Source: Pratylenchus scribneri
Taxonomy: Eukaryota; Nematoda; Chromadorea; Rhabditida; Pratylenchidae
Assembly (NCBI GenBank): GCA_030063045.1
Contig: JAQSEB010000032.1
Location: 2,790,001 to 2,854,000, forward strand
DNA length: 64,000 bases
Reading direction: 5' to 3'
Both the position numbers and the translations under genes were made by a program. Positions 124-61,092 of the stretch are shown piece after piece. The first letter of the stretch is position 1; every line of letters starts with the position of its first letter. The notes beneath the pieces were generated by a model. It did no database searches. It saw nothing but the letters and a program-made list of their open reading frames with translations, and was not told the origin of the DNA.

Positions 124-2542
124 TTATGAATGCAAATTTGTTCCATTTTTTGTTGGATAAACTCGAATTGGACCGCTAAATTCCATTGTCATTATTTGCC
201 CTCCCTCCAGCCAAATTGGAATCCAATCATCAGGGAAATTTTCGCGGGTATAATGAGTGAAATTGAGGTTGGAATTATAGAAAACGTGTCCGCCTTTGTT
301 GCCCATCAAATAGCCAATCCACCAGCCAAATGTGCTGGCACTGGCCGTCAACAGGAGGGAATGGCACGAATGAATGGCCAAACAAAATTCCTCATTTCGT
401 GAATAACCTTCGACAAAATGAGGCCGAATTTGCTTAAATATAGTAGAAGATTACTTATTTTGGAGGCTAATGTGGACTTACATCCAATTTAAGACTCCGT
501 AAAAATTTTTTATCTTCACCAAAAAACACAACCTGAGGTGAATTTTGATGAATTTGCTGAAAAATTGGAATTTAGGAATACGGTGGATGAAATGACCTCC
601 AATTTTTTGTATAAAAATGTGACTGCCTTTTCCGTGAATTCCTTTTTTGATTCAAACCATAATGCTTCAAAATCACCTCTCCTCGTATGAACGCACAATT
701 TGTGTCTTTTGTCCACACTAAATTTGTTGAATTTTTGGCAAAAATCGAGTTAAGCTAACCCAAATAATTTTGAATGAATTTGGCGGGCATTTCTAATCAA
801 TTCAGGGGAACATTGGAAAATTTGACGAATTTGATGCCGAAATTTATGAAAATATTTATATGATTGAAGATAATTGGCCAATGTTTGCAAAAAGCGAATA
901 TTGACCGAATTTGGTGGGAATTTGGCCGACAGCAAATTCGGATCATCGAATTTGCAGCAATCCAAGCCAAAATTGGGCAAAAATGCAGTTTCATTCGAAG
1001 GAGTGTCCGAAAATAGTCAAAAATAAATTGGGGATGGAATGGACTGACCATAAAACGTAAATATTTTTTATAGAGGGGAAATGGAAGGTTGGTTTCATTG
1101 AACCATTCTTTTCCATTCCCGTGATCCTCCATTCCACCACAATGCTGATATTTTGCGAAGGCGGGCACTCGATTCAATGGCCGACCAATTCCATAAAGTG
1201 ATGCGAAACGGAACATCTTTGAATAAAAGAAAGGGAATACTCAAAGAGAGTAAATAAATACTAAATTTATTTTTAGTTTTATTAGAAAATTGGATTTTTA
1301 GTGAATATAAAATGTTATTTATCGTGTGATGCCTAAAGGCGATTCAAAACAATTCAATCTGGAAAACTAATATAATATTCGAAAGCCGAAAGTAACTTTA
1401 ATTTTAAAATCCATTTTAAAAAGTTTTAAAAAGGCGGAATTATTCTAATTTGATCAAGCGGAATTAAAATGTTTGGAGCAAATAAAACAGGCGGAATTAT
1501 TTTGGTGCAAATAAAACAGGCGGAATTATTTTGGTGCAAATAAAACAGGCGGAATTATTTTGGTGCAAATAAAACAGGCGGAATTATGTTTGGGGCAAAT
1601 AAAACAGGCGGAATTATTTTGGTGCAAATAAAACAGGCGGAATTATGTTTGGGGCAAATAAAACAGGCGGAATTATGTTTGGGGCAAATAAAACAGGCGG
1701 AATTATGTTTGGGGCAAATAAAACAGGCGGAATTATGTTTGGTGCAAATAAAACAGGCGGAATTATTTTGGTGCAAATAAAACAGGCGGAATTATTTTAG
1801 TGCAAATAAAACAGGCGGAATTATTTTGGTGCAAATAAAACAGGCGGAATTATGTTTGGGGCAAATAAAACAGGCGGAATTATTTTGGTGCAAATAAAAC
1901 AGGCGGAATTATGTTTGGGGCAAATAAAACAGGCGGAATTATTTTGGGGCAAATAAAACAGGCGGAATTATGTTTGGGGCAAATAAAACAGGCGGAATTA
2001 TTTTGGTGCAAATAAAACAGGCGGAATTATGTTTGGGGCAAATAAAACAGGCGGAATTATGTTTGGGGCAAATAAAACAGGCGGATACTTCCCAATAAAA
2101 ATTGTTCTGCATCATTTTGAGATACAGTAATCCTCTCCCTTCCATCCAAAACCTGATTGCCTAATCCGCCGCATTGTCCTTTTGGGAAACTGGGCAAAAT
2201 AAAATTTGCATCCTCCGGGAATATTATCATTTCCTCCTCTTTTGTGTTCACATCAAATTCGCTAGAATTCCAGAATCCCCAAATCCTCTTATTTTTGTCG
2301 GTTTTTTGTAGAAGAAAATGGGGCGAAAATGAATTGAATGCAAAATTACAAAAAAGAAGGAATAAAGTTGAAATGAAGGAAAATAACAAAATCAAAGGAA
2401 AATCGCAGCAAAATCCAACTGCTCCCATTTTTGGGTAGAAAATAAATATGGGAGAAGGAAAGTACATAAATTGCGGTCGCCGTTTTGGGAGGAATATTTT
2501 CCGGGTCAATTTTGAAAATGATGAAAAAAACCGAAGAAACAT
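124..2542 (-). CDS. Alpha-1,2-fucosyltransferase, GT11 family, type II membrane protein
   Basis: Transfers fucose in alpha-1,2 linkage onto glycans in the Golgi (family knowledge). Exons on the minus strand: 2542-2153, 1216-1057, 1006-760, 717-597, 556-482, 432-124. They join in frame to 433 aa, near the usual GT11 length. A membrane anchor lies at about residues 48-70, so the enzyme is type II. Family motifs seen: GGLGNQ joined across intron 1 to MFRFASLYG, the donor-binding CVHTRRGDF near residue 275, VVFFGEDKKFL, and ASTFGWWIGYL near the C-terminus. Met39 (2428) just before the anchor is an alternative start. Intron 1 holds a 26-bp minisatellite. Intron 2 (1056-1007) ends TTTTCGG instead of AG. 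The frame only works if that site is used or the genome base is wrong. It lies 209 bp downstream of the aminotransferase gene on the same strand, a possible operon. Confidence 0.9.
1467..2091. repeat. Minisatellite array, type A (about 24 units), in fucosyltransferase intron 1
   Basis: Tandem units of about 25-27 bp, each holding AACAGGCGGAATTAT followed by either TTTGGTGC or GTTTGGGGC and then AAATA. The array fills most of intron 1. On the strand of the host gene the unit reads AATTCCGCCTGTTTTATTTG. The left edge (1440-1480) has the degenerate unit AGCGGAATTAAAATGTTTGG, which recurs at the edge of other arrays in the window. Some units spell open frames in both directions, but this is intronic. 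Confidence 0.95.
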
Positions 2543-2751
2543 TGAAGGAAAAAAGCTAGAAAAAATTTATTCAGATTAATTTTCAAAATACAAAAATGAA
2601 TAATTGTTGGATATTATTGGGGTTAGGAGGATGATTATGACGAAAATTGTTATTTCCTTTTCACCGGTCAATGTATTCTTAAATTCTTAATTCTAGTAAA
2701 AATGCGCATCCAAATTTTCTGCCTAATTATTCTTCAATTTTGTTTGGGTCT

Positions 2752-59200: not shown

Positions 59201-61092
59201 AAATAATTCCGCCTGTTTGACTAAGTTTTAATAATTCCGCCTGTTTGACTAACTTTTAATAATTCCGCCTGGTTGACTAAGTTTTAATAATTCCGCCTGT
59301 TTGACTAAGTTTTAATAATTCCGCCTGCTTGACTAAGTTTTAATAATTCCGCCTGCTTGACTAAGTTTTAATAATTCCGCCTGGTTGACTAAGTTTTAAT
59401 AATTCCGCCTGTTTGACTAAGTTTTAATAATTCCGCCTGTTTGACTAAGTTTTAATAATTCCGCCTGCTTGACTAAGTTTTAATAATTCCGCCTGGTTGA
59501 CTAACTTTTAATAATTCCGCCTGGTTGACTAAGTTTTAATAATTCCGCCTGGTTGACTAAGTTTTAATAATTCCGCCTGGTTGACTAAGTTTTAATAATT
59601 CCGCCTGTTTGACTAAGTTTTAATAATTCCGCCTGTTTGACTAAGTTTTAATAATTCCGCCTGCTTGACTAAGTTTTAATAATTCCGCCTGGTTGACTAA
59701 CTTTTAATAATTCCGCCTGGTTGACTAAGTTTTAATAATTCCGCCTGTTTGACTAAGTTTTAATAATTCCGCCTGGTTGACTAAGTTTTAATAATTCCGC
59801 CTGTTTGACTAAGTTTTAATAATTCCGCCTGTTTGACTAAGTTTTAATAATTCCGCCTGCTTGACTAAGTTTTAATAATTCCGCCTGCTTGACTAAGTTT
59901 TAATAATTCCGCCTGGTTGACTAAGTTTTAATAATTCCGCCTGTTTGACTAAGTTTTAATAATTCCGCCTGCTTGACTAAGTTTTAATAATTCCGCCTGG
60001 TTGACTAAGTTTTAAATAATTCCGCCTGTTTGACTAAGTTTTAATAATTCCGCCTGTTTGACTAAGTTTTAATAATTCCGCCTGTTTGACTAAGTTTTAA
60101 TAATTCCGCCTGTTTGACTAAGTTTTAATAATTCCGCCTGGTTGACTAAGTTTTAATAATTCCGCCTGGTTGACTAAGTTTTAATAATTCCGCCTGGTTG
60201 ACTAAGTTTTAATAATTCCGCCTGTTTGACTAACTTTTAATAATTCCGCCTGGTTGACTAAGTTTTAATAATTCCGCCTGGTTGACTAAGTTTTAATAAT
60301 TCCGCCTGGTTGACTAAGTTTTAATAATTCCGCCTGTTTGACTAAGTTTTAATAATTCCGCCTGTTTGACTAAGTTTTAATAATTCCGCCTGTTTGACTA
60401 AGTTTTAATAATTCCGCCTGTTTGACTAAGTTTTAATAATTCCGTCTGGTTGACTAAGTTTTAATAATTCCGCCTGGTTGACTAAGTTTTAATAATTCCG
60501 CCTGGTTGACTAAGTTTTAATAATTCCGCCTGTTTGACTAACTTTTAATAATTCCGCCTGGTTGACTAAGTTTTAATAATTCCGCCTGGTTGACTAAGTT
60601 TTAATAATTCCGCCTGGCTGACTAAGTTTTAATAATTCCGCCTGTTTGACTAAGTTTTAATAATTCCGCCTGCTTGACTAAGTTTTAATAATTCCGCCTG
60701 TTTGACTAAGTTTTAATAATTCCGCCTGCTTGACTAAGTTTTAATAATTCCGCCTGGTTAGAATAATTCTGCCTAAGAGCGAATAAAAAATTAATTCCAA
60801 CTATTTTAAAAATAATTCCCGGGGAAAATGAATGGAAAAAATGAATTAATTTAATTAAAATAGTTCGCCATTTGGACTCAATGGATGTTGGCAATTTGCA
60901 GAAGATTTCAATGCTTGACAAGCAACTTGGCGATTATCAAGTCAATTTTACCCATTTCATATTTAATTATTATTATTAATTTCACAGTTGGCCACTTGGA
61001 TGCTCCTATTTTGTGCACTTTTCTTCTTCGCTATCCTAGTCGGTTTGGCCTGTTATTGTACTCGAAAGGAACCGGATGAAGATGAACTCTAA
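56241..61092 (+). CDS. Cholinesterase-like transmembrane adhesion protein (neuroligin/gliotactin type), catalytically dead
   Basis: Surface protein with an esterase-fold ectodomain, likely in cell adhesion (family knowledge). Seventeen exons from 56241-56479 to 60988-61092 join in phase to 653 aa. Signal peptide at the N-terminus ([13 protein letters not shown]), then [41 protein letters not shown] and [18 protein letters not shown]. The nucleophile elbow reads [17 protein letters not shown]: the usual G-E-S-A-G is G-Q-G-S-G, so the active Ser is replaced by Gly. The acidic residue (TTRDES) and the His (VFHGCDE) remain. A transmembrane helix ([19 protein letters not shown]) is followed by a very short acidic tail, EPDEDEL. 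Intron 15 (59034-60863) is filled by a type B minisatellite. Convergent with the next gene, 145 bp apart. Confidence 0.9.
56940..57200. repeat. Purine-rich dispersed repeat in intron 5 of the cholinesterase-like gene
   Basis: Begins CATACCGTATTTCCTC and contains GGGGCTATTATTAGAAC, CTATTATTAGAGGGAGGCGG, GGGCTTACTATTAGAGGGG and CTTCTACTAGGAGGGGAGCC, then GACGGTAATAATT. A related stretch with TTCTATTAGAAGCCC, TTCTACTTGGGAGTGGGCTT and ATACGGTATTTTG lies at 61525-61645. Confidence 0.5.
59085..60775. repeat. Minisatellite array, type B (about 62 units), in intron 15 of the cholinesterase-like gene
   Basis: Units of 26-28 bp: AATTCCGCCTG(G/T/C)TTGACT, then AAGTTTTAAT. Both edges carry the variant GGTTAGAATAATTC (59107-59120 and 60756-60769). 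The left edge has AAGAATAATTTCGCACATTT, similar to the edge of the large globin array. Same unit type as 40375-41065 but inverted in genome orientation, so identical relative to its host gene. Confidence 0.97.

Follow-up and report, generated by a model that had tools for sequence, protein, structure and literature searches.

Why five tandem arrays in the introns of five genes should be built on one short core was examined in a 64-kb window of the Pratylenchus scribneri genome (the whole stretch C32:2790001-2854000, numbered here from its first base) and in the assembly to which it belongs (227,248,964 bases, 276 contigs). The explanation put forward, with about an even chance of being right, is a genome-wide minisatellite superfamily that shares one box, the spacers being kept alike by local exchange and the box being kept everywhere through nuclear protein binding or recombination. 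All five arrays contained the 12-bp core CAGGCGGAATTA; allowing at most one mismatch, 236 matches were found in the window against 0.31 expected from shuffles, and 220 exact copies lay in five clusters of 20, 115, 3, 23 and 59 (arrays 1-5), which bore out the sequence-only reading from which the question came. The arrays were as follows.

1425 to 2090, plus strand: array 1, 22 type A units with 20 exact cores, the left edge made up of mixed, degenerate units; core antisense to the gene
14350 to 17999, minus strand: array 2, 124 type A units with 115 exact cores, a 28-unit block occurring twice; core sense to the gene
27935 to 28072, plus strand: array 3, a small cluster of mixed A/B-like units holding 3 exact cores; core antisense
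40366 to 41066, plus strand: array 4, 25 type B units with 23 exact cores; core antisense
59090 to 60772, minus strand: array 5, 61 type B units with 59 exact cores; core antisense

Extents given by Tandem Repeats Finder (TRF) were 1469-2085 for array 1 (30 bp), 14415-17986 for array 2 (29 bp), 27944-28015 for array 3 (irregular, 20/27 bp), 40402-41059 for array 4 (28 bp) and 59117-60759 for array 5 (28 bp); degenerate edge units carried these arrays out roughly to the limits drawn in the sequence-only reading.

Core and spacers across the genome

The exact core was counted 57,288 times in the assembly (27,950 + 29,338), against five copies (4 + 1) of the reversed pattern used as control. Among the first 100 plus-strand places listed (C1:115 to 852,541), 99 fell in six groups and one stood alone (305,303). 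Independent slippage at each locus, which had been discounted from the window alone, is ruled out by a single core at this abundance, present all-or-none in 43 arrays; a common origin or dispersal, with later expansion at each locus, is left. A viral or prokaryotic origin was rejected, as core pairs were absent from IMG/VR and the GTDB collection held three contigs with one pair each, taken as chance; a literature search on the core and related strings returned only an unrelated match.

Units consisted of the core and one of several spacers: type A (TTTTGGGGCAAATAAAA and variants) and type B (TTAAAACTTAGTCAAN), both as first described, type C (TTCTAAGCGAAAACACAAAA) and, further, a B-like spacer in L033, an A-like spacer in L043, a 13-base A derivative in the C1 copy of array 3 and type D at C1:115. 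The element held in common had been given as 12 bp; the core is indeed shared, but the box is longer, AAACAGGCGGAATTA being present in 8 of 8 array loci compared, and the most widely shared 11-mers among array loci were all derived from it. By eye, at the edges of arrays 1, 3 and 5 one unit type gave way to another at the core; in the C1 copy of array 3 one such change fell within a spacer.

Exact spacer counts genome-wide were 4,125 for A, 5,435 for B, 7,743 for C and 189 for D, in sum 17,492 or 31% of cores. On C1, type A had 11 plus-strand sites among those listed, from 1.097 to 1.414 Mb and none before 1.097 Mb, and type B had 6 (1.027-1.293 Mb, none before 1.027 Mb); the stretch holding these A and B sites includes the region homoeologous to the window. 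Type C had 7 listed sites, at 0.112-0.191 Mb (both orientations) and then at 3.096-3.202 Mb, with a 2.9-Mb gap. Tests against uniform placement on C1 gave 7.2e-8 for A, 7.4e-5 for B and 0 of 200,000 for C, with sites grouped by hand from 100 listed places and the A and B patterns taken on the plus strand only. The reading from the window had not anticipated this contrast between a global core, spacers A, B and C grouped by region on C1, and a scattered D. A minisatellite of the window that lacks the core was counted for comparison.

36505 to 37390, no strand: core-less 33-bp minisatellite (TRF), used as control

A 12-mer of this repeat had 452 copies genome-wide versus 196 for its reversed pattern, and 99 of 100 listed places lay at three C1 sites (1288665, 1297053 and 1351311) within 65 kb. 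Local spread seems usual for minisatellites in this genome, and a global count was seen solely for the core, compared with this one control motif.

To set the core against the general repeat content, 17 stretches of 10 kb (20 requested) were sampled, 7 of them contig starts, so that the sample is not strictly random. They held 93 exact cores (L031 2, L033 70, L043 20, L046 1, the other 13 none) and 36 tandem arrays of at least 100 bp with a period of at least 9, of which 4 had two or more cores; the genome is rich in minisatellites, and the core arrays are one class among them. In L033:6185-10000 a core array and its flank occur twice, about 2.98 kb apart, as a recent local duplication, and L043:3501-5819 (minus strand) holds a long open frame, rich in Ser/Thr/Asn and mucin-like, with 24-base repeats. 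So many arrays, with the core in so few, suit a neutral library, in which one old minisatellite was dispersed long ago and turned over locally with no selected function, the core being its still-recognisable ancestral part and partly a product of its use as search word.

How constant the core is bears on this choice. In 43 array consensuses it was exact in 10, at least four mismatches off in 33 and intermediate in none; the absence of a gradient, the unaltered core beside otherwise unrelated spacers and the nearly local distribution of the single core-less control all speak against a neutral library. Of 11 arrays scored for substitutions per copy, among which are two homoeologues of array 3 and one near-duplicate pair, 10 had a lower rate in the core than in the spacer and L043 did not. 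This test and the position test below were computed without the first and last unit of every array and without array 3 (four units), and the position test also without L033b, a near copy of L033a. A constraint test that included indels (10/120 versus 46/170, p 6.6e-5) was biased, cores having been sought by substitutions only, and was not relied on. The half-changed core TAGGCGGAATTA, present in 24 of 76 units in L033, and an array of spacer alone at L043:6780-7190 fit a neutral library; because the latter exists, the core is not needed for amplification, and its dispensability there favours retention by selection. On this evidence the neutral library is a real possibility that falls clearly short of an even chance.

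In the explanation put forward, a box-sharing superfamily with local exchange, neighbouring arrays would swap units by ectopic gene conversion, template switching or re-insertion of excised repeats, and such exchange between neighbours would leave spacers locally alike. The box would be kept everywhere since a nuclear protein may bind there, in chromosome segregation, pairing or recombination, and arrays retaining it would persist; this retention is the less certain step of the two.

Several observations count against that explanation. By positions, the core was weakly less variable than the spacer (9/120 versus 24/170 variable positions, p 0.09; 6/96 versus 21/140, p 0.04, without homoeologues), which agrees with a neutral library, and L043 reversed the per-copy pattern, its core varying more than its spacer. 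Exact-core searching misses arrays with an altered core, and the all-or-none pattern is that of 43 arrays. Placement of A, B and C was observed on C1 only, a single core-less control was counted with its places taken from 100 listed, and spacers are not strictly regional, A-like and B-like ones occurring also on C50 and C3 (L043 and L033). Type D, with its 189 copies, was scattered over 19 contigs among 100 places listed, for which reason both this explanation and the docking-site reading discussed below were put lower. A protein that binds the box, and a function for it, are putative.

Age and edges of the arrays

The region was found in three homoeologous copies, the C32 window, C4:0.81-0.90 Mb (minus strand) and C1:1.25-1.31 Mb, with a flank identity of 74-99%; excerpts of the P. 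scribneri genome paper describe a diploid genome with 41.4% duplicated BUSCOs (PMC10138993). Flank-to-flank distances in the window, C4 and C1, respectively, were about 660, 1480 and 2227 for array 1; 3850, 1214 and about 700 for array 2; 136, about 860 and 1281 for array 3; about 780, 410 and 587 for array 4; and about 1760, 1789 and 1339 for array 5. They were derived by hand from the places of flank matches, and the expectation for a site free of an array, by window coordinates, was about 220 for array 2 and below 100 for the others. Extra DNA was thus present at 15 of 15 sites (five sites in three copies). The core itself was seen at nine (the five of the window, both array 3 homoeologues, and arrays 1 and 4 on C1, recognised from where types A and B lie) and the remaining six were judged by flank distance only; with that limit, no empty site occurred among the 15. 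Because all homoeologous sites are filled at differing lengths, the five sites are old and inherited, their lengths are unstable and differ several-fold, and they are not recently mobile.

In array 2 a run of 28 units occurs twice (maximum in 200 shuffles, 13), and in L043 a run of 9 units was found (shuffle maximum, 6); these two arrays were enlarged by duplicating blocks of units. Block duplication above shuffles was absent in 7 of 9 arrays, a further point against the explanation put forward. Across array 5, identity to C1 rises from 88% on the left to 99% on the right (window 59080 and 60840; C1:1.3126 and 1.3140 Mb) and identity to C4 is steady (92% left, 90% right); the jump suggests a gene conversion tract. 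Type D sites on C2 (1,129,238; 1,140,668; 1,250,789) and C47 (1,358,597; 1,369,507; 1,475,087) are nearly equally spaced, and the two contigs look like another homoeologous pair.

The system had been read from the window as a candidate mobile one, to be recognised by a full-length element with the same edges. Common termini were sought in the flanks of ten arrays compared and in 22 flanks searched, a small sample, and none was found. Dispersed repeats stood at 9 of 22 flanks versus 87 of 300 background pieces (p 0.24, not significant), matches in the query's own neighbourhood, between orthologous array 3 loci and of L033 with itself being omitted. Taken with the filled homoeologous sites, these results do not uphold mobility.

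They bear equally on the view that a non-autonomous DNA element, Helitron-like or with short inverted repeats, carries or once carried the arrays around as its internal repeats; minisatellites inside such elements are known, to judge from excerpts of PMC10048060. The present arrays resemble those in being short, dispersed in gene-rich DNA and placed beside transposon pieces; they differ in that a search for common ends found none and dispersed repeats were not significantly in excess at their edges. Some observations would suit a carrier. Array 2 is bordered on either side, and the array at C1:112 kb on its left, by pieces of an abundant inverted-repeat-like family; next to array 4 stands a different dispersed repeat (window 40143-40300); and arrays 3 and 4 have a flank in common. 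Against a carrier stand the 0 of 15 empty sites, the fading of array edges into degenerate units with no sharp end, and the lack of any dispersed match in either flank of array 5, L016 and L033a. A transposon as carrier is therefore considered unlikely.

27871 to 27915, plus strand: array 3 flank, recurring beside array 4 at 40314-40364 (84% over 51 columns, E 2.7e-10)

The two flanks are alike as far as the 3' splice site of the array 3 intron, with 8 of 30 positions identical beyond it. This is a direct trace of local copying over about 12 kb, as if the intron end had been carried along with the array.

Two dispersed repeats were noted in passing. The inverted-repeat-like family gave 23 matches in 246,176 bases (at most 5 mismatches of 22), in window 24853-37976, L038, L042, L043 and others, often as facing pairs about 200 bp apart. 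The repeat of about 140 bp at window 40143-40300, adjoining array 4, was matched across many contigs; the whole mixed query gave 536 first-look candidates, of which 40 were scored.

Host introns and orientation

Splice signals were found on both sides of all five arrays, and the claim that all five are intronic stands.

1217 to 2152, minus strand: host intron of array 1, in a GT11 fucosyltransferase-like gene; splice signals, a joined frame and a Glyco_transf_11 match that falls narrowly short of the cut-off (E 7.6e-5)
14117 to 18125, minus strand: host intron of array 2, globin-like gene; splice signals; joined exons weak against Pfam Globin, E 0.091, below the cut-off
27871 to 28088, minus strand: host intron of array 3; splice signals; guanylyl cyclase is the name given in the sequence-only reading
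38732 to 41180, minus strand: host intron of array 4, ubc-17-like gene, after the first coding exon read; splice signals; frame by eye
59034 to 60863, plus strand: host intron of array 5, cholinesterase-like (carboxylesterase family) gene; splice signals
43722 to 44105: Hira domain (Pfam), marking a neighbouring gene

For the fucosyltransferase gene the exon join QCGGLGNQMFRFASLYGIG (QCGGLGNQ|MFRFASLYGIG) was checked for frame by script; for the globin, cyclase and esterase introns the support was the splice signals and exon reading. A Pfam scan of 32 single-exon frames was informative for Glyco_transf_11 (below the cut-off), UQ_con (3e-26 at 34269-34607, in the ubc-17-like gene), COesterase (1.2e-8 at 57517-57795, in the host of array 5) and Hira. 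The same scan gave nothing useful for the frames taken to be exons of a globin, a cyclase and a transporter, and no Pfam match among the scanned frames supported the cyclase name of the array 3 host; at 27430-27789 the one match, to Apis_Csd, was below the cut-off and put down to low complexity. The ubc-17 piece had no match in a PDB search. The window also contains homopolymer runs of 25 G (31361-31385) and 26 C (34107-34132).

Relative to the gene, array 2 carries the core in sense and the other four arrays (1, 3, 4 and 5) carry it in antisense; four of five in the same orientation is thus correct as a count, and as a bias it is not significant (p 0.375). If the arrays acted in introns, for example on splicing or expression of the host gene, the antisense orientation might be kept as that strand offers no cryptic 3' splice site, and the antisense type A unit indeed lacks an AG dinucleotide, the sense unit carrying ACAGG. 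The antisense type B unit does hold AG, however, the largest array is sense, and an intron excess, which would have to be set against the base rates of intron and intergenic DNA, is not claimed from five intronic loci. An intronic function is accordingly rated as highly improbable; the intronic arrays are probably tolerated passengers, not parts of splicing.

Known systems and significance

The closest architecture was met in Meloidogyne, also a tylenchid plant parasite, for which excerpts of PMC9673304 describe short CenH3-associated arrays that fall into five divergent repeat families and share a conserved 19-bp box; according to the part of PMC11538461 consulted, no holocentric animal but M. 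incognita has a sequence box in centromeric satellites. The P. scribneri arrays are likewise short and dispersed, belong to several divergent tandem-repeat families (spacers A, B, C, D and variants) and have one conserved box across families, in all eight loci compared. The likeness is one of architecture, and the arrays are not classed as a member of that system; experiments link the Meloidogyne box to the centromere histone, whereas for the present box a protein partner is putative. Regional arrangement of spacers, seen here on C1, is not mentioned for Meloidogyne in those excerpts.

The Box 1 satellites of M. chitwoodi and M. fallax are described, again in excerpts, as CENP-B box-like, with a 17-bp box resembling the human CENP-B box, divergent monomers and changes of monomer type at the box (PMC3694981), comparable to the changes at the core seen where arrays 1, 3 and 5 end. 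The P. scribneri units differ from them in lacking CENP-B box likeness and in the one type change inside a spacer. The CENP-B box consensus is NTTCGNNNNANNCGGGN, of whose 9 essential positions units A, B, C, D and F match 5-6, a score equalled by 103 to 450 of 500 shuffled units, and the candidate was rejected. Human minisatellites, described by Jeffreys, comprise many hypervariable loci with a common short G-rich core in otherwise different units; the present arrays resemble them in a short core common to many hypervariable loci and in lengths that vary between copies of a locus, and differ in the core sequence, in far more copies and in the regional clustering of spacers on C1.

In Caenorhabditis elegans, pairing-centre motifs of 12 bases in many copies are bound by ZIM/HIM-8 zinc-finger proteins, according to excerpts of a review (PMC9071541). 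The core is likewise a 12-base motif in many copies; those motifs are enriched at one end of particular chromosomes, whereas the core occurs throughout the listed C1 stretch and on other contigs. A more far-reaching proposal is that the box is a chromosome-wide putative docking site for a protein of the holocentromere or of homologue pairing, in introns as well, and that local spacers would form a positional address letting homologous regions recognise each other; this is judged quite improbable. The same excerpts, by stating that CENP-A in C. elegans has no link with repeats and stays away from genes transcribed in the germline (PMC9071541), make a centromere role in introns less likely; C. 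elegans satellites with strong CENP-A affinity are reported in the part of PMC4595182 consulted.

No earlier description of a box-sharing minisatellite superfamily with locally clustered spacers was found by the literature searches in an open-access library. Box-sharing repeats in P. scribneri would add a second tylenchid genus to Meloidogyne, and two matters would become testable: whether holocentromeres or pairing sites of such worms are marked by short boxes, and by what means a short motif can remain global amid locally changing DNA; the arrays themselves are highly variable, gene-embedded markers in a crop pest.

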